Below, in pieces: positions 29,551 to 41,341 of a stretch of 64,000 nucleotides of DNA (positions are counted from its first letter, which is position 1; every line of letters begins with the position of its first letter). This stretch comes from Candidatus Sysuiplasma jiujiangense (lineage in GTDB: Archaea > Thermoplasmatota > Thermoplasmata > Sysuiplasmatales > Sysuiplasmataceae): contig JAHEAD010000002.1 in NCBI GenBank assembly GCA_019721075.1, positions 90,949-154,948 on the forward strand, read 5' to 3'. The notes beneath the pieces are model-generated. The model saw only the letters and a list, made by a program, of their open reading frames with translations. It ran no database searches and was not told where the DNA came from. The position numbers were made by a program, and so were the translations under genes.

Positions 29551-29755
29551 TCAACGATTCATGGCGTATGACAGGTATGAATTCAGCCTGATTCCTGTCA
29601 GGATGCACCACCATTCAGGCCGATAAATCGCAGAGAGGGCAGAAAGACTCATGGCTGACGCGAAGCATCGATCCGAAAGTTGGAATTTTCTCATCTATCT
29701 CCGTCGACATTATTGCCCGGCATCCCTGCCATTCCTCAGGTTTGAGGGCAAGAAA

Positions 29756-30955
29756 ATGTCAATACCCTTTATATTCGACAATTGCGCTGCTGCTTCTATG
29801 GCAGTCATGAAATCAGGGACCAGCCAAAAATCGATCAGCCTTTCTACGGATACGATAAGATTGGATGGTTCAGGAGTATCCGGTGATGCTCGCAGCGATA
29901 AAGTGTCTGTACTTGGAAATGCCAGGACAAGGATATACAGCTACCCTTCCTGCACTGCAGGGAAACCAGCCTCAAAGAGGATTGTAGTCTTCCGCTCGGC
30001 GGAGGAAGCGGAGGGTGCAGGCTACAGGCTTTGCAGACATTGCGCCACCGCCGGACCCGGAAGACAGACAGCTCGGACGAAATTGATCGAGGATGTGTGC
30101 CACTACATTCGTTCCCATCACTCACAGAAAATAACACTGAAATCTCTCAGTTACACATTTTCAATAAGCCCCTTTACACTCCAGAAGTTATTCAAAAAGA
30201 CGATGGGAGTGTCGCCCAGAAAATATCTCGAAGAGATCAGAATAGCTGACCTCAAGACAAGACTCAGCCGCGGGGATTCAGTGGAGTCGGCAGTCTTCGG
30301 CGTCGGTTACGGCTCAATGACCTGGCTTTACGGAAATTCAAGACTGAAGCTCGGGATGAAGCCTTCATCCTACAAAAATGGAGGCGAGGGGGTGGAAATC
30401 TATTATGGGATAAAGGCAACAGGAATAGGCCATATCATGGTGGCAGCCACAGCGAACGGAATTTGCTCCGTTTCTGCAGCAGACAGTGAAGCTGCTCTGA
30501 TTGACGCGCTCAGGAAGGAATTTCCACGCGCATCCCTGCAGGCGTCGGATAAGATGGACGTTTATATCAGAGGCGTTGAGGATTGCCTTCTGGGAAGTGA
30601 GGTTGCCTTCCCCCTGGACATAAACGGAACGGATTTTGAAAAAAGCGTCTGGGCCGCAATAACAGAAATACCTTACGGAGCGACTGCGACCTACAGTGAA
30701 ATTGCCGAAAGGATAAGGAAACCGCGTGCGGTCAGGGCGGTGGCCAATGCATGTGCGAAGAATCATGTTCCTCTCATCATACCGTGCCACAGGGTGATAA
30801 GAAAGGGAGGCGACCTGGGAGGATACGGTCTGGGTCTCGACAGGAAGAGGAGGCTGCTGGAACTGGAAAAATCCAATTCAGCCGGAGGGAAAAGGATACG
30901 GCCGGAAAGCCGCCCCCGAACGGTTGACGAGACATGCAAAACGCAACAGTGCTGA
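29756..30955 (+). CDS. Ada-like protein: Zn domain, AraC HTH and methyltransferase domains
   Basis: Multi-domain DNA alkylation-repair protein. In order: an Ada-type zinc domain (RIYSYPSC ... GYRLCRHC), an AraC-type HTH (KITLKSLSYTFSISPFTLQKLFKK, MGVSPRKYLEEIR), and an O6-alkylguanine-DNA methyltransferase domain with PCHRVIRKGGDLGGYGLG. In E. coli Ada the zinc motif is FCRPSC, whose first Cys (C38) takes methyl from phosphotriesters. Here the aligned residue is Ser, so that activity and Ada-style induction are doubtful, while the guanine-repair Cys is intact. I choose ATG 29756 (GAGGG 7 bases before); the frame extends to 29651. AraC domains are rare in archaea, pointing to bacterial origin. 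Confidence 0.85.
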   Translation: MSIPFIFDNCAAASMAVMKSGTSQKSISLSTDTIRLDGSGVSGDARSDKVSVLGNARTRIYSYPSCTAGKPASKRIVVFRSAEEAEGAGYRLCRHCATAGPGRQTARTKLIEDVCHYIRSHHSQKITLKSLSYTFSISPFTLQKLFKKTMGVSPRKYLEEIRIADLKTRLSRGDSVESAVFGVGYGSMTWLYGNSRLKLGMKPSSYKNGGEGVEIYYGIKATGIGHIMVAATANGICSVSAADSEAALIDALRKEFPRASLQASDKMDVYIRGVEDCLLGSEVAFPLDINGTDFEKSVWAAITEIPYGATATYSEIAERIRKPRAVRAVANACAKNHVPLIIPCHRVIRKGGDLGGYGLGLDRKRRLLELEKSNSAGGKRIRPESRPRTVDETCKTQQC

Positions 30956-32919: not shown

Positions 32920-33465
32920 GACACTGCCTTGCGGCCCAGGACACGACGAAACGGAATTGCGGAAAACTTTAATTGTGTCGCCATTCTGAGAGGTCCGCTC
33001 TCTTTTCCGGACTTGCGTCAGGGAGGTTCACGTTTTGGCGTAAACAGCCGTTGCGCTTTTGTGAAAGCAGGGCTGACTGCCTCATCACCATCCATCATGC
33101 ACAGTTTATCCATCATTTACAGTAATGTGAGCGTTTCGGACCTGCCGGTACGGTGACCCCTTGAGTGTATCAGATCTTGCAATGCAGTCATGGGGCAGCA
33201 TAGGTCATCTCCCCCTCGGATTGTTTCCTGATCTCTCATCCATCAACAACCGTTCCTGACATCTTGTTACATATCCTGGATCTTGTCATTCTGTCTGTCA
33301 GGGAAAGAGAAGAGATATCTTTTTGATCCAATGATGTACAGCAGGTGACTTTGTTTGCGAACTGAAACTGACTGTTTCGAACCTATGTTATTAAAATCGC
33401 CATGCTGCCGCAAAGCAGGTTCCGGTAATAACTTTTTTATAGCTTTTGACCAATACGGGAATACA
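32920..33465. other. Intergenic region upstream of the sugar transport operon
   Basis: About 550 bases with no supported gene. Near its end are paired GTTATTA (33387-33393) and TAATAAC (33426-33432) and an AT-rich TTTTTTATAG at 33433-33442, a likely TATA box for the transport operon, followed by the palindrome at 33466-33485. Confidence 0.5.
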
Positions 33466-33485
33466 ATACTAATGTTGATTAGTAT
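33466..33485. promoter_or_regulatory. Palindrome ATACTAAT-GTTG-ATTAGTAT, candidate TrmB operator
   Basis: Perfect 8-bp arms around four bases, about 25-30 bases downstream of the TATA-like 33433-33442 and 25 bases before the first transport gene. It would cover the transcription start. The core TACTAAT-N4-ATTAGTA recurs over the start codon of the TrmB-type regulator gene at 40957-40976. Known archaeal TrmB sites also have TACT...AGTA half sites. Confidence 0.65.
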
Positions 33486-33508
33486 ATTAAATAAATGAGG
33501 GGATAATT

Positions 33509-34828
33509 TTGCGAATGAGAACAGTCGGTGTGATAGTTGTGATCGTAGTGGTCATAGCGGCCGCTGCCAGCGCGGGGTACATTCTTACCAAACCGAAAAG
33601 CAAGCTGACAATTGTCTTTTCAGGATGGGTATCCAGCGGAGCTGAATACACGTTCGACCAGCAGATGGTAAAAAACTTCAATGCGATGCATCCGAACGAT
33701 TCGGTTGTGTTTAGTCCGATAACAGGAAACTATTATGGTGTGTTGTCAACGAAGTTTACGACCAATACGGCTCCAGCAGTCATGTACATGGAAAATGACG
33801 CACTGCCCGCTTATGCCAAGGCAGGCTATCTTTTGAACATGACGCCTTTCCTGAATGCAAATTCGAGCTACGATGTTCAGGGATTTGTTCCTCAGATCCT
33901 GAACACATTTACATACAAGGGAGGGATTTATGCCGCTCCCAAGGACTGGAGTCCATTGTTCATCTACTTCAACAAGTACATATTCAACCAGGAAAAAGTT
34001 CCTTACCCCGGCAACCTTACCGTATGGAACTGGACAACGATGACTTCCACACTTCAGCAGCTCAAAAACAACGAGACCATGCTGCCCGGAGGCGGGTCCG
34101 GCTACTATCCAATGGTTGTCGGAGCCCAGTTTGCCAGGATCCTCGCATTCATGCATGAGGCTGGCGGACAGTGGATTAGCCAGAGCGGAAGCGGTGCAGC
34201 ACCTAACTCTGCAGGACTCCTGTCTGCGATAGAGTTCTGGTACGGCCTATACCAAAAGGGACTGGCAGGATTGAATACCAATATGAGTGCTGGCTGGAAC
34301 GGTGGCGACTTTTCAACAGGCAAGGTCGGAATGGTTGTCAGCGGCGGATGGACATATCCGGTGGCAACAGGAAACGGTTCGTTCTTCCATAACAATCTCA
34401 ACGCCCTTGGCTATTATCATATGCCATCAGATGTACAGAACGGAACAATGGGTTTTGACGTCGGCCTGGCGATAAACAGCCATTTGCCCGCAGCCAAACA
34501 GTGGCTTGCCCTTCAGTTCATAGAGTACTTCACCGGACCGGTTGGAGAGAAGCAGTGGGTTAGCCTGGGACTTGCCCTGCCGGCGAGAACGTCAATCCTG
34601 GAAAGTTCTGCATATTCGAGCATTCAGCCGGCACTGGCATATGCCGGATCTACCGAATTCCCGTATACATATGGATGGGCATACAACACCACGAACTTCA
34701 CCGCGGCGCACACTGAGGCGCACAATGTCATTGCAGATATGTTTGCCGGCAAACTGACGCCCATGCAGGCTTACCAGCAGATACTCGCCGATACAAACTC
34801 TTCGCTGGCAGGTACATCGACATTGTAG
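33509..34828 (+). CDS. Sugar ABC transporter solute-binding protein
   Basis: 439-residue family 1 extracellular solute-binding protein. Residues about 5-26 are a hydrophobic anchor (VGVIVVIVVVIAAAASAGYIL), then LTIVFSGWVSSGAEYTFDQQMVKNFNAMHP, GGIYAAPKDWSPLFIYFNKY, GGDFSTGKVGMVVSGGWTYPVA and a C-terminal helix bundle. Many N-x-S/T sequons suit an S-layer-exposed archaeal protein. GAGGGG lies six bases before the TTG at 33509; the ATG at 33515 is an alternative for a leaderless transcript. First gene of an operon with two permeases, an ATPase and a glycosidase, so the ligand is probably an oligosaccharide. Confidence 0.92.
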   Translation: MRMRTVGVIVVIVVVIAAAASAGYILTKPKSKLTIVFSGWVSSGAEYTFDQQMVKNFNAMHPNDSVVFSPITGNYYGVLSTKFTTNTAPAVMYMENDALPAYAKAGYLLNMTPFLNANSSYDVQGFVPQILNTFTYKGGIYAAPKDWSPLFIYFNKYIFNQEKVPYPGNLTVWNWTTMTSTLQQLKNNETMLPGGGSGYYPMVVGAQFARILAFMHEAGGQWISQSGSGAAPNSAGLLSAIEFWYGLYQKGLAGLNTNMSAGWNGGDFSTGKVGMVVSGGWTYPVATGNGSFFHNNLNALGYYHMPSDVQNGTMGFDVGLAINSHLPAAKQWLALQFIEYFTGPVGEKQWVSLGLALPARTSILESSAYSSIQPALAYAGSTEFPYTYGWAYNTTNFTAAHTEAHNVIADMFAGKLTPMQAYQQILADTNSSLAGTSTL

Positions 34829-34882
34829 TGCATCAACATTTTTAACCGTTCAAACCTTTTACCATTCTCTTGATATGAAGGT

Positions 34883-35815
34883 GTGTTGATTCTGGCAGCC
34901 GGCATCTCATTTAGATCGCTTTCGGGTTCTTCAAGCAAGAGAGTCGTAAGCATGACAGCTTACATTTTTATTGCGCCTCTGTTTGCCATGATGTTTGCAT
35001 TTGTTTTCTTTCCTGTATTGTTTTCACTTTACATCAGCCTTTATCATTACGATCCGTTTTTTCATAAAATTTACTTCATAGGACTGACCAATTACTTCAA
35101 TGTGCTGGAAAATCCGAGCTTCATCTTCTCAATATTCAATGTTCTTTACTACACCGTTGTTGTTGTCACCATTCAGACGTTTCTCGCGTTTTTCCTCGCA
35201 CTTCTCTTCAACAACAAATTACCGGCTTCAAGAACGACGAGAGCGCTCGTCTTTCTCCCCGCAATATCATCACCGGTGGCTTTCTCGATAATATTCATCT
35301 GGGTATTTTCCCCGCAGGGGCTTGTTAATTCCTTCCTCCCCTATGTGAACATATTCAATCTTCCGCATAACGAAAACTGGCTGCTGAGCACAACATACGC
35401 ATTTCCAGCGATCATGGCGATGAACATTTTCTCCACTGCTCCATATTTCATGGTAATATATATTGCAGGACTGCAGGCAATTCCGACGCAGATACTGGAA
35501 GCCGCTGCCCTGGACGGCGTCAAGAGCAGCTGGCACAAGTTCAGGTACATCTACTTCCCCATGCTCAGGTTTACTACCACATTTGTCATAATTCTTGGCC
35601 TTATCGGATCCATACAGCTATTCGATCAGGTGTTCGTGATAACCGACGGCGGTCCCGCGCACGCAACTTATGTGCCCCTGATGTTCATATACAACAGGGC
35701 ATTCCTTTACGATGAACTGGGACAGTCCGCTGCCGCATCCTTCGTTCTCTTTGCAGTCATAATGCTCCTGACGCTCACACAGCGAAGATTCTTCAAGGAG
35801 ATGACATGGGCATGA
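34883..35815 (+). CDS. Sugar ABC transporter permease (MalF/LacF type)
   Basis: 310 residues with six membrane helices, the first about residues 24-48 (TAYIFIAPLFAMMFAFVFFPVLF). The EAA loop that docks on the ATPase is present: EAAALDGVKSSWHKFRYIYFPML. Start GTG at 34883, or TTG directly after, behind AAGG; initiation at M24 (MTAYIF) is also possible. Overlaps the next permease gene by 10 bases. Confidence 0.92.
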   Translation: MLILAAGISFRSLSGSSSKRVVSMTAYIFIAPLFAMMFAFVFFPVLFSLYISLYHYDPFFHKIYFIGLTNYFNVLENPSFIFSIFNVLYYTVVVVTIQTFLAFFLALLFNNKLPASRTTRALVFLPAISSPVAFSIIFIWVFSPQGLVNSFLPYVNIFNLPHNENWLLSTTYAFPAIMAMNIFSTAPYFMVIYIAGLQAIPTQILEAAALDGVKSSWHKFRYIYFPMLRFTTTFVIILGLIGSIQLFDQVFVITDGGPAHATYVPLMFIYNRAFLYDELGQSAAASFVLFAVIMLLTLTQRRFFKEMTWA

Positions 35816-36750
35816 CAGCTTCGAATCCGGTGACTGAGCGGTTGACACGCTTCAAGGATGTTATCGCTTCCAGATTCGGAAGAGAGGAAGCGCACGTTCC
35901 GACCGTTTACAGAATGAGCAAATCGAAAAGTGCAACGCTTCAGGCGCTGATGATAATACTGGCGGTAATCTATTTCGTCCCATTCTACTGGATGATCCTT
36001 AAGTCATTCCGATCCAGCATATTTGCGGGATTCCCGGTGGATCTGAATCCTGTTTCCAGGACAAGCATTGCAAATTTCGTGTCGAATTTCAACTACGTCT
36101 GGAGTTTCGGAAGTTTTCCCATGTGGTATTTCAATAGCATTTTTGTTGCCGTCGTTGTTGTTGCTTCAAGTGTCTTCATCGGATCGCTTGCCGGCTACGC
36201 GTTCGCACGTCTTGATTTTCCCGGAAGAAATTTGTTATTTTACGCTGTTCTGGCGACACTGATGATTCCTTTCCCTGTGATCACCATATCCGAATATGTT
36301 TTCATGGTGAATCTCGGCTGGATAAATTCGTATCAGGGACTGATACTGCCGCAGATTGCTTCGGCGGTAAACGTATATCTGATGCGGCAGTATTTCCTGA
36401 CAATACCGGGCGAAATAGAGGATGCCGCAAAAATTGACGGCTTGCGTCCTGCCCAGATATTCTTCAGGATATCCGCGCCTCTTGCCAAGCCCGCCTTTGC
36501 GGCCAGCGCAATCTTTACATTCATAGGATCATGGAATAATTTTATCTGGCCACTATTTGAAATACAGTCGACAGGCATGTATACGCTGCCTCTGGCACTC
36601 AATTTTTTCAAGGGAGCCAATGGAACACAGATTTACTGGAATCAGATGATGCTTGCGACCACCATTACACTCATTCCAACATTCATCATATACGTCATTT
36701 TCGAGAGATTCTTCATTCAGGGCATTTCACTCACCGGTACGAAGGGATGA
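35806..36750 (+). CDS. Sugar ABC transporter permease (MalG type)
   Basis: 314-residue inner-membrane permease, second of the pair. The polar N-terminus of about 40 residues precedes ALMIILAVIYFVPFYWMILKSF. The EAA loop reads EDAAKIDGLRPAQIFFRISAPL, followed by the usual FIGSWNNFIWPL segment. It starts inside the end of the first permease gene and ends 4 bases before the ATPase ATG, so all are cotranslated. Confidence 0.93.
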   Translation: MGMTASNPVTERLTRFKDVIASRFGREEAHVPTVYRMSKSKSATLQALMIILAVIYFVPFYWMILKSFRSSIFAGFPVDLNPVSRTSIANFVSNFNYVWSFGSFPMWYFNSIFVAVVVVASSVFIGSLAGYAFARLDFPGRNLLFYAVLATLMIPFPVITISEYVFMVNLGWINSYQGLILPQIASAVNVYLMRQYFLTIPGEIEDAAKIDGLRPAQIFFRISAPLAKPAFAASAIFTFIGSWNNFIWPLFEIQSTGMYTLPLALNFFKGANGTQIYWNQMMLATTITLIPTFIIYVIFERFFIQGISLTGTKG

Positions 36751-36754
36751 ACAG

Positions 36755-37873
36755 ATGTCGATAGAAGTAAGAGACCTTGTGGTCGAATTCAAGGGCGTCA
36801 GGGCACTCGATGGCCTGAATTTCGAAGCCGACGACGGTGAATTCCTGGTGATACTCGGTCCGTCGGGATGCGGTAAGACGACTGCACTGAAGTGCATTGC
36901 GGGCCTGCTTGAACCAACTTCAGGGGAGATATACATTGACGGAAAGATAGTTAATGGCGTCTATCCTTCGGAGAGAAACATTGCGATGGTCTTCCAGAAC
37001 TATGCGCTATATCCGCACATGACGGTATACGACAACATAGCACTGAACATGAGGATGAAGAGGCTGCCAAAGGATGTAATCGATGCAAAAGTCAGGAACG
37101 TGGCGTCAAAACTGCAGATTGACCAGATGCTGAAGAAGAGACCGAAGGAGCTGTCAGGAGGGCAGGCCCAGAGAGTTGGTCTCGCGAGGGCAATGGTCAG
37201 AGAGCCCACAGCATACCTGATGGATGAACCGCTTTCCAACCTTGATGCGAAGCTCAGAAACGAGATGCGAGATGAAATGAAACGCTTCCAGAATATCACC
37301 GGCAAGTCCATTATTTACGTGACGCATGACCAGGTTGAGGCAATGACGCTGGGTGACAGAATTGTCGTCATGAATAAGGGCAGAATAGTACAGGAAGATG
37401 CCCCGAAAAAGCTTTTCGACGATCCTGATCATGTTTTTGTCGCGAATTTTCTCGGCAATCCGCCGATGAATATGATCAATGTGGACTTATTGCCCAGCGG
37501 CACATCAGAATACAGGTTAAAGATTGACGATGCCCTGAACGGGAACGCACGCATTGCGACGGACGGATCGGTACGCCTTCCGCAGTCAGCCGTGATCGGC
37601 ATCAGGCCTACAGACCTGAGGTATTCGGAAAAAGGCAACGTGTCGGCTGTTTTTGACTATGCGGAGCTGCTGGGAGCCGACGTGAACGTGCATTTCCACC
37701 TTGGCCCTGACAGATGCATTGCAAGAATAGAGCGGAGAGACGAAAATGAGAAACTTCTTGAAATCAGCAAGGGAAGTCATTTTTCTCTCGATGTCTCGCC
37801 TGACAGACTTTTTATTTTTGATGCGCAGACGCAGCGCAGGATAAGAACAGCAGTAAAAGAGTTTTCAATATGA
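36755..37873 (+). CDS. Sugar ABC transporter ATP-binding protein (MalK/UgpC type)
   Basis: 372-residue ATPase that powers the permease pair. Walker A GPSGCGKTT is at about residues 35-43, Q-loop VFQNYALYPHM, signature LSGGQAQRVGLARA, Walker B YLMDEPLSNLD and switch THDQVEA. The C-terminal 130 residues form the MalK-type OB regulatory domain (VIGIRPTDL). The ATG at 36755 gives the family start MSIEVRDLVVEF; the frame is open further upstream within the permease gene but that part is not homologous. Confidence 0.95.
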   Translation: MSIEVRDLVVEFKGVRALDGLNFEADDGEFLVILGPSGCGKTTALKCIAGLLEPTSGEIYIDGKIVNGVYPSERNIAMVFQNYALYPHMTVYDNIALNMRMKRLPKDVIDAKVRNVASKLQIDQMLKKRPKELSGGQAQRVGLARAMVREPTAYLMDEPLSNLDAKLRNEMRDEMKRFQNITGKSIIYVTHDQVEAMTLGDRIVVMNKGRIVQEDAPKKLFDDPDHVFVANFLGNPPMNMINVDLLPSGTSEYRLKIDDALNGNARIATDGSVRLPQSAVIGIRPTDLRYSEKGNVSAVFDYAELLGADVNVHFHLGPDRCIARIERRDENEKLLEISKGSHFSLDVSPDRLFIFDAQTQRRIRTAVKEFSI

Positions 37874-37968
37874 GTCACCTTGTCGGATTCAAGGCGCGGG
37901 AAACAGCGGCAGAGAACGCCATGCACCGGACACGACAGTTCCCGCAATAGAGCTGAAATATCTGGAAA

Positions 37969-39846
37969 ATGCTGAAGGCTCCCATGGGTGACGGTATGCC
38001 TGACGGATCTGACGGCGCTGTGAATATCCATGTGCTTAGCAGACCCGGGCATCTTCCCTTCACCGTTTCGGGTATGCGTTCCTATTTCATCGGATTTACC
38101 GATTTGATGCCCGACAGCATAGGGTCCCACATCCCGGACGAGATGAACGGCCTCTGGATTCCGCCACTTCGTCTCTTCAAGAATATCACGGTCAGCAGGA
38201 ATTCCGAACCGCTCAAAGTCGAGTCATTCTCAATTTTGCCCTGGAAACGAATTTTCGATCTCGGAAATGCGAAGATCGAATTGATGATGACAGACAACCC
38301 CGGCATGCTCATCAAGATGCAAGGCACCGTCCGAATGACTGTTGACATGGAGTTTAAACCGATTCCTGTTTGGCTCGACAGCAGGAGTCCTGAGTACAGG
38401 ATTGCCAGCAGAAGCAATGATCGAAAGGCAACCTTGCATTTCCCGAATTTCGACAAGAGTTTTGGAATAACCTTCGGAAGGGGAAAGTACCGCATAACGG
38501 AAGAAAAAATATCTCTTGAATCTATCGGAGAGTCGTTCATCCTGATAGAGAGCCGCCGAAGAACGTCACGCAGTGGACGCGTATCCAACCTAGGCCGGCT
38601 GGAGCAGGACAACATCTCCTTTTACTCCAGCATCCAGTCCAGATCCGAACTGATAACAGAGAGCACATCAGTGGACAATGCATATTACTGGTCCAAGATG
38701 GTCCTTGCCTGGCTATCGCATGCCCAGGACGGCATAGGCACAGGCATAACCGCGGGCCATCCCGAATTTCCATGGTACTTCGGATTCGATACCTTCCTGA
38801 CATTCGACGCCTTGCTTGAATGCGGAATGTTCGATATCGCAGCGGGATCCCTTGAGATACTTTCAGCAAGAGCGAGATGCAACAATGGAAGGATACCACA
38901 CGAAATAATAACCAGCGGACATGTTTACAATGAAGGGGATCTGGAAGAAAGCGCCATGTTCGCCACCGCATTGCTCAAATATTACGACTGGACGCTTGAC
39001 ATGGAGTTTCTTGCCGGGCATGCACATGATGCATACAGGGCACTCTGCTTTGTGCTTGACAGAGACATGCTCGGACCCGGCGCGATGGAGGATCCGGAGC
39101 GCGGAGAGGGAAAGGACATCGATACAATGTGCTTCTTCACTGAAAGCGTTGAATCACTTGAGCGCATATGTTCCATTCTCGGCGAAGATGCTGACTATCC
39201 CCGTTTCGACAGAATGGATGAACTTGCTGAGGCAGCGGCGGAGACGCGCATGACGATCGAAGATGAAATGTGGATACCGGAACAGAATATTTATGCTAAC
39301 AGGATTGTGGACGGCTCCCCCCTCTTCAGGGGACACTGGACATCGATAATGCCCTTCTACTGCCATATTGCGGCCAGAGACAGGTTTGCAAGATTCGCAA
39401 GCGCGCGTGAGGGAGGGCTCTCCCTGATAAGCGGGCGGTACGGAATAACGGCGGACAGGAGAGGTGCGGCAATGCCCGTCCAGAACGGAATGATGTGCCT
39501 GGCGTCGCTGTTTTACGGTGACGCCAACAACGCACTAAAATTTTTCAGACACAATATCTCTGCGTTTGGAAAATATTCCCCGTGCTGCATTCCGGAGATA
39601 ACAAACAGGAAGAACGGATGCTATATGCAGGCGTGGTCTTCGGCCATGCTCATTCATCCCCTCATCAGTGGCTTCATAGGCCTCGGCGTGAAGGGGGGTG
39701 TACCCTCCCTGAAACCTGATTTCGCCGGCAGAATCTCGGAAAAGGTGAAGTTAAAGAACGTATCCGTAGGACGCAGGCGTTATGACTGCACCATACTCGC
39801 CAAACGTGCCGGTCCTGTTGAATTCGACATTTCCCCCGGCAACTGA
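37969..39846 (+). CDS. Six-hairpin (alpha/alpha)6 glycosidase, debranching-enzyme-like
   Basis: 625 residues, no signal peptide. An N-terminal beta-rich domain of about 230 residues is followed by an (alpha/alpha)6 barrel with PEFPWYFGFDTFLTFDALLECG, RIPHEI, EESAMFATALLKYYDWTLD, ENIYANRIVDGS-like repeats and GCYMQAWSSAMLIHPLISGF. This resembles amylo-alpha-1,6-glucosidase and related GH15/GH63/GH133 enzymes. The Asp in WYFGFDTF is a plausible catalytic acid. It lies 95 bases behind the transporter ATPase on the same strand, so it probably digests the imported oligosaccharide inside the cell. Substrate unknown. Confidence 0.75.
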   Translation: MLKAPMGDGMPDGSDGAVNIHVLSRPGHLPFTVSGMRSYFIGFTDLMPDSIGSHIPDEMNGLWIPPLRLFKNITVSRNSEPLKVESFSILPWKRIFDLGNAKIELMMTDNPGMLIKMQGTVRMTVDMEFKPIPVWLDSRSPEYRIASRSNDRKATLHFPNFDKSFGITFGRGKYRITEEKISLESIGESFILIESRRRTSRSGRVSNLGRLEQDNISFYSSIQSRSELITESTSVDNAYYWSKMVLAWLSHAQDGIGTGITAGHPEFPWYFGFDTFLTFDALLECGMFDIAAGSLEILSARARCNNGRIPHEIITSGHVYNEGDLEESAMFATALLKYYDWTLDMEFLAGHAHDAYRALCFVLDRDMLGPGAMEDPERGEGKDIDTMCFFTESVESLERICSILGEDADYPRFDRMDELAEAAAETRMTIEDEMWIPEQNIYANRIVDGSPLFRGHWTSIMPFYCHIAARDRFARFASAREGGLSLISGRYGITADRRGAAMPVQNGMMCLASLFYGDANNALKFFRHNISAFGKYSPCCIPEITNRKNGCYMQAWSSAMLIHPLISGFIGLGVKGGVPSLKPDFAGRISEKVKLKNVSVGRRRYDCTILAKRAGPVEFDISPGN

Positions 39847-39854
39847 GGATGCCA

Positions 39855-40970
39855 CTATGCACCTGATGCCCTCAGTAATTCAATAGTTTCTGCCTCGATA
39901 TCTTCCGCGATCGAATCATATCCGCCGACTGTAAAATCACGGGTTCCGCTTCTGATCCTGAAATCCACTATATCATGGTCCATATCTATATCAGTCACCC
40001 TGCCCTCTACTGTGATATCCTCTCCCGTCTTCCTTTCCTTGCCGGTCACCCTGACATAAAGGTTTTTCAGGCCCTCTTTCATAAGTCTCAGCATATCACT
40101 GACAGCGATACGCTGTATAGTGTAAACTGCCGGCAATTCTATCGGCCTGGAAAACACCGTTTCGGCGGTGAACCATTCCTGAAAGAAATTATGAAGCAGG
40201 AACCATGACATGTTTCCGTCCCTCAGAATGTAGCCGTACCTTTCGTCCTCGCCAGAAAGTGCCACCCTCCGTGGCATAAATGAAGAACTGTTCATGTCAC
40301 TTATTGCCGAAAAAAATTGTCCGATGCCCGCGATCCTGATTTCCGAGAAAAGCCGTGAATCCCTCTTCAGAAATTTACTCCTGTAATCCTGCATGCCTGT
40401 ACCGAAAATGAGGAGGCCGGATCTTATACCCTCATCCATTTTGGATTCAAGCGCTTTGGAAAAATTGTCTGTGATATCTACTGGTGTTTCGAGGAACAAT
40501 GTCTGTCTTGCGCTTCTGATTATTTCGGATGTGTTGCTTACGAAGCTGTTCCAGTTTCTGCTCAGCCACATTGCGGGCAGACTGGTCATCGAGCGTGATG
40601 AATTGGATACCCAGCTCATCAGCTCCTTTTTTATTTTCTCGGTGTCTCTTGTTCTGTTCTCCAGTATAACCTCGGTATTGACAGGTAGATAGACTTTGGG
40701 CCTGCTGTTCTGTACATTTATGAACTGCTTTCTCTCGAGTGAAGCCATTATATCATACAGCTGCGGCTGTCTGAGATTGAGCTGTGTAAGCAGATCCCTG
40801 GAAACAGCACTTCCGTTTTCAACAAGGTATTTGTAAACCTTCGATTCATTCTCTGACAGGCCAATGCTTTCCAAAAGGCGAAGCACGTAATTGCCGCCGT
40901 CCTCCTCCTTCCTCAACTCTGCCACTCCTGCGTTCGATTTAAAATCTGACTTGAAATTACTAATGCTCAT
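39855..40970 (-). CDS. TrmB-family sugar-responsive transcriptional regulator
   Basis: 371 residues with TrmB layout. A winged HTH sits at residues about 28-100 (LLESIGLSENESKVYKYLVENGSAVSRDLLTQLNLRQPQLYDIMASLERK), then a coiled linker, a phospholipase-D-like sensor region (RSARQTLFLETPVD, SGLLIFGTG) and a C-terminal beta domain (ITVEGRVTDIDMDHDIVDFRI) like the sugar-binding domain of Regulator_TrmB. Convergent with the glycosidase gene, 8 bases apart. The palindrome at 40957-40976 covers its own ATG, and the same core stands before the transport operon, so it probably controls both and itself. Confidence 0.88.
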   Translation of the reverse strand: MSISNFKSDFKSNAGVAELRKEEDGGNYVLRLLESIGLSENESKVYKYLVENGSAVSRDLLTQLNLRQPQLYDIMASLERKQFINVQNSRPKVYLPVNTEVILENRTRDTEKIKKELMSWVSNSSRSMTSLPAMWLSRNWNSFVSNTSEIIRSARQTLFLETPVDITDNFSKALESKMDEGIRSGLLIFGTGMQDYRSKFLKRDSRLFSEIRIAGIGQFFSAISDMNSSSFMPRRVALSGEDERYGYILRDGNMSWFLLHNFFQEWFTAETVFSRPIELPAVYTIQRIAVSDMLRLMKEGLKNLYVRVTGKERKTGEDITVEGRVTDIDMDHDIVDFRIRSGTRDFTVGGYDSIAEDIEAETIELLRASGA

Positions 40971-40976
40971 TAGTAA
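40957..40976. promoter_or_regulatory. Palindrome TTACTAAT-GCTC-ATTAGTAA, candidate TrmB operator
   Basis: Perfect 8-bp arms around four bases, overlapping the start codon (40970-40968) of the TrmB-family gene. The core TACTAAT-N4-ATTAGTA is identical to the site at 33466-33485 before the sugar transport operon; only the central four bases and the outermost pair differ. With a leaderless transcript the site would lie right at the transcription start. Confidence 0.65.
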
Positions 40977-41341
40977 ACTTTCAACAACTGGAATTCGCTA
41001 AGCAATACATATAGGTTTTAGTCATACCGTTGTTTTCGCACATCCCATTCCGAATACATCAGAAGCATTGACTTCAGAGGAAACCGTTTGCAGGAAGGAA
41101 CGATTGAGTATTTCGTTCTGACGGATTAAAGAGAGAAACGGCGTGAAAACGACAGTACCTGGCACTGCGGAATTCCGAATTAAGCGGCACGACATTATAT
41201 TCGAAATTTATGTCAGAATGTATCCGGAGAAAATCGGACTTGAGCGAAGGAAAGCTGTGTATCCCTCCCAATACTGTGCCAGTTGGCTGCCCGCTCGAGT
41301 TTACGCCCCGGTGCCCGGTTTATCTTGAACTAACCGTCTGA
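40977..41341. other. Intergenic region without a recognised gene
   Basis: About 365 bases between the regulator promoter and the end of the next minus-strand gene. Short frames (41074-41271 minus, 41143-41328 plus) have no family features or ribosome binding sites. Nothing else is recognised beyond the AT-rich promoter region near 40990-41015. Confidence 0.5.

Follow-up and report, generated by a model that had tools for sequence, protein, structure and literature searches.

The window analysed here, a 64,000-nucleotide stretch of the Candidatus Sysuiplasma jiujiangense genome, carries a sugar-transport operon on the forward strand that converges with a TrmB-type regulator gene on the reverse strand (39855–40970). 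The operon begins with a gene for a sugar-binding protein (SBP_bac_8/SBP_bac_1; 33509–34828, starting at TTG 33509 or ATG 33515), followed by two ABC permease genes (BPD_transp_1; 34883–35815 and 35806–36750) and an ABC ATPase gene of the MalK/UgpC type, whose frame spans 36653–37873 and whose true start lies within that frame, near the ATG after the permease stop. The last gene (37969–39846) encodes an (alpha/alpha)6 glycosidase that is probably cytoplasmic and is related to archaeal amylo-alpha-1,6-glucosidase. In most relatives this place holds two glycosidase genes; the window genome and G006, a genome of the same family, have one.

Structure modelling of moderate confidence (pLDDT 67.5 and 67.8; the glycosidase model was used for fold class only) assigned the glycosidase to the fold of archaeal amylo-alpha-1,6-glucosidase and of GH63/GH94/GH65-like enzymes. 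This fold class makes an oligosaccharide of glucose the probable substrate, which the model can suggest but cannot fix. The matches of the sugar-binding protein to oligosaccharide-binding proteins are many and weak, and therefore do not fix the sugar.

Each of the two promoters contains a putative TATA-like element. That of the transport operon (TTTATAG, 33436–33442, forward strand), assigned by archaeal promoter rules, lies 31 bases upstream of the core of a palindrome termed O1, and transcription is expected to start roughly 25 nt past the element, at the palindrome edge. The operon palindrome would thus coincide with the expected transcription start or follow it immediately. The candidate element of the regulator gene (CTATATG, 41008–41014, reverse strand) precedes a second palindrome, O2, which lies slightly further downstream of it than O1 does of its own element and covers the annotated ATG. 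Because the regulator shows no conservation N-terminal to residue ~25, the true start of the protein may be internal. Elsewhere in the window, an open frame (29651–30955) whose translation was judged by eye resembles a bacterial-style repair gene, here in an archaeon: an AraC-like helix-turn-helix joined, as in Ada-type fusions, to an O6-methylguanine methyltransferase (IPCHRVI).

The regulator protein

Domain analysis bore out the earlier note, which had assigned the regulator to the TrmB type from the DNA alone. The TrmB winged helix (PF01978) was found in Pfam at residues 33–100 with 59.2 bits against a cut-off of 25.6, and the TrmB sugar-binding domain (PF11495) at residues 133–365 with 160.6 bits against 22.2, covering nearly the full profile. 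The NCBIfam equivalog cut-offs for TrmB, TrmBL1 and halobacterial TrmB were not reached (59, 92 and 99 bits versus 600, 650 and 500, respectively).

The regulator aligns with Pyrococcus TrmB (PDB 3qph, E = 2.4e-13), at low overall similarity. In the Pyrococcus protein, Tyr50 and Asp51 are essential for DNA binding and Gly320 and Glu326 for sugar binding (PMC4158304); these residues correspond to Tyr72-Asp73 and to Gly350 and Glu356 of the regulator. The recognition-helix segment LRQPQLYD and the Gly/Glu pair are invariant in the aligned orthologues. By profile and alignment, the regulator is thus a member of the sugar-sensing branch of the TrmB family and an orthologue of no named member.

A rare palindrome at two promoters

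The two palindromes were confirmed in the sequence with the letters and coordinates that had been reported for them. O1 reads ATACTAAT-GTTG-ATTAGTAT (33466–33485, forward strand), with the core TACTAA-N6-TTAGTA at 33467–33484, and O2 reads TTACTAAT-GCTC-ATTAGTAA (40957–40976, no strand assigned); the former assignment draws also on conservation at the same promoter in orthologous loci. Scanning the window for TACTAAT-N4-ATTAGTA returned exact matches at 33467–33484 and 40958–40975 and, at up to three mismatches, one further match. When all perfect 7-bp inverted repeats of the window with gaps of 0–12 were compared, TACTAAT was the sole arm seen twice at equal gap.

Across the 2.29-Mb genome, the same pattern occurs twice exactly, never with one mismatch and once with two mismatches, whereas the number of exact copies predicted by a first-order Markov estimate is 8e-4 for the genome and 2e-5 for the window. 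The earlier note had taken many unrelated genomic matches at up to one mismatch as a refutation of its operator; that search found only the two exact copies, which favours the note. Four genome places match the looser core TACTAA-N6-TTAGTA with at most one mismatch, and two of these are the exact copies.

Candidates for a wider regulon were rejected: no sugar-gene promoter is recognisable at the one-mismatch core matches C1:239010 and C27:14399, and those weaker matches that were opened lie in mixed contexts, as chance predicts. At another place (L123 1501–1540; G000:C7:16334–16373), two tandem imperfect palindromes TACTTAA...TGAGTA, 22 bp apart, stand directly 5′ of the start of an ATPase-like gene and are possibly the operator of another regulator.

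Conservation of the site across Thermoplasmata

The gene order of binding protein, permease, permease, ATPase and glycosidase(s), convergent with trmB, is kept in other Thermoplasmata, with orthologous operons in the same genus (G002, G003), in the same family (G006), in Thermoplasma-group and other family f17 genomes, and in Thermogymnomonas acidicola. TACTAA-N6-TTAGTA stands exactly at the binding-protein promoter in all readable intact orthologous loci but G006, where the site has one mismatch and lies on a separate contig together with the beginning of the binding-protein gene. The G046 contig stops before the binding protein, and the operon site is not readable there; in G081, the operon site is lost and the N-terminal part of the binding protein is replaced.

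In G081 (L115 9633–11294), an unrelated N-terminal stretch continues in frame into the C-terminal part of the sugar-binding protein. The regulator, binding-protein and glycosidase frames of Thermogymnomonas acidicola (L106 9884–18999) are each split, reflecting either sequencing errors or operon decay. In one lineage, a perfect palindrome of a different type, TCACTAA-ACAGAT-TTAGTGA, lies between the two glycosidase genes of the orthologous operon (L110 4678–4699 and L103 6177–6198).

Across the orthologous operons, the twelve positions of the arms hardly vary (mean 1.97 bits), the centre is free (0.63 bits) and the flanks carry 0.45–0.47 bits per position. The identical 7-bp arms described in the earlier note hold for both window copies, but across species the seventh base is T or C, and the element that is kept is (TA)TACTAA-N6-TTAGTA(TA). 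If transcription begins ahead of it, an inverted repeat of this kind would be copied into RNA with an 8-bp stem and a 4-base loop, and could then function as an RNA hairpin in the leader instead of as a protein-binding DNA site. We consider this very improbable, since the arms are conserved letter by letter with no compensatory changes, the stem is A+T-rich, and identical letters recur at two promoters at differing distances from the start codon. That the two palindromes coincide by chance is more improbable still, to the point of being negligible, given their rarity and above all their conservation across genomes, which refutes it.

The extended 22-bp form, TATACTAA-N6-TTAGTATA, was sought by its 16 fixed letters in 400 genomes of the class and is present in 13; the reversed control pattern matched in one genome. 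Ten of these 13 have the site at the binding-protein promoter of the orthologous operon; a TrmB orthologue is encoded by nine, and in the tenth, G308, whose assembly is fragmented, the site is followed by the binding-protein orthologue. The site occurs in 9 of 14 genomes with a TrmB orthologue versus 4 of 386 without (Fisher p = 2e-12, indicative only because the genomes share ancestry). Among genomes checked directly, ten without a TrmB orthologue were also without an orthologue of the binding protein.

The remaining three site-bearing genomes belong to one genus and have no TrmB orthologue, and their palindrome is therefore probably the similar site of another regulator. There (L132, L133 and L134, ~1501–1522), the 22-bp form has an A-rich centre and neighbours an MFS-type gene and one that encodes a cysteine-containing protein of 112 aa. 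These three genomes, together with the four further proteins of the window genome that exceed the PF01978 cut-off, lend something to the idea that a DNA-binding protein other than the adjacent TrmB binds the palindrome. We nevertheless judge it improbable, because the site accompanies the TrmB orthologue across genera, the site precedes the operon that adjoins trmB, and the seventh base is A in the three exceptions but T or C in the operon sites linked to TrmB. In principle, the conservation of the site could also reflect another regulator that travels together with the operon. The promoter conservation and the co-occurrence of site and regulator support the proposal of the earlier note that the regulator controls the transport/glycosidase operon, and we regard this predicted control by the adjacent TrmB as strongly supported.

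Evidence for control of the regulator by itself, also proposed there, is divided. With a matrix built from the operon sites, O2 scores 17.9 bits versus a shuffled maximum of 10.0, and degenerate sites with TATACAAT or TATGCAAT as left arm occur at the regulator in four Thermoplasma-group genomes (G046, G201, G137 and G081, the last weak at 6.3 bits) and in G029. With the same matrix, 9 of 15 orthologues have no recognisable site at the regulator promoter (G002, G003, G189, G257, G067, G245, G074, JAMDBW and Thermogymnomonas). O1 alone might accordingly be the working operator, with O2 recent or weak and autoregulation marginal, as the nine promoters would allow and as the reported absence of autoregulation in vivo for Haloarcula TrmB and Pyrococcus TrmBL1 (PMC10817205) would parallel. 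The exactness and score of O2 and the degenerate sites in five relatives speak against this, and we hold it to be possible although rather unlikely. The distribution of exact, degenerate and absent sites thus makes self-regulation likely in this genome and in some members of the Thermoplasma group, but not universal.

A predicted TrmB switch and its relation to known systems

Its retention before the same operon in related acid-loving archaea makes the palindrome very probably the regulator's switch for sugar uptake and, in some lineages, for the regulator itself. We infer binding, repression, inducer identity and autoregulation as follows. A regulator dimer would use its winged helix to bind the two TACTAA half-sites, which are spaced by about one turn of the DNA helix. 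Bound to O1, it would block RNA polymerase at the transport/glycosidase operon, because O1 closely follows the TATA-like element and coincides with the expected start of transcription. The sugar that the transporter imports is probably an alpha-glucoside, for example a malto-oligosaccharide or trehalose; it would bind the C-terminal domain and release the repressor. At the regulator gene start, O2 would allow the regulator to keep its own level in check in this genome. For TrmB, a site downstream of the TATA box brings repression and one upstream brings activation (PMC4158304, PMC10817205), a rule under which both O1 and O2 would repress. We have considerable confidence in this reading of the palindrome as a TrmB operator through which a dimer represses the operon, imported sugar releases it and O2 limits the regulator level.

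In broader terms, we lean towards a Thermoplasmata TrmB clade that has its own wide operator, the 22-bp form, as a dedicated one-operon switch, with a second operator at the regulator start gained or lost by lineage. Autoregulation would then have turned over while operon control stayed fixed. The orthologous loci accordingly offer a comparative series in which autoregulation varies and operon control is constant. Because the site is short, varies very little and is close to unique in each genome, it makes the regulon directly testable and offers a candidate sugar-inducible promoter for acidophilic archaea. We found no TrmB operator for Thermoplasmata in the open literature, outside which most subscription journals lie, and the operator spacing TACT-N10-AGTA was not found in the open literature searched.

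A close parallel in organisation is TrmB of Pyrococcus furiosus and Thermococcus litoralis, regulator of the trehalose/maltose (TM) operon, which has the same two domains and key DNA- and sugar-contact residues, an adjacent ABC sugar operon, TACT...AGTA half-sites and a site overlapping the binding-protein gene promoter. The likeness of the half-sites to archaeal TrmB sites, as the earlier note had it, therefore stands, but the spacing differs: TACT-N3-AGTA lies at the BRE/TATA box in those organisms, whereas O1, O2 and the orthologous operon promoters have TACT-N10-AGTA, downstream of TATA in this locus. The regulator gene here is, moreover, convergent with the operon and has its own site.

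The nearest published spacing belongs to Halobacterium salinarum TrmB (VNG1451C), whose wide palindrome TACT-N7-8-GAGTA places AGTA 8–9 bases after TACT and whose model gave the regulator its best NCBIfam score, below the equivalog cut-off. That protein is a global regulator of gluconeogenesis with many targets, whereas the window genome has two sites. Pyrococcus TrmBL1 and Thermococcus Tgr are likewise TrmB-family proteins that are released by sugar and repress from a site downstream of TATA, but they use the operator TATCAC-N5-GTGATA and have a genome-wide regulon. Sulfolobus acidocaldarius MalR, also of the TrmB family, similarly controls a maltose transport operon, but as an activator whose two direct repeats, ATAATACT, lie far upstream.
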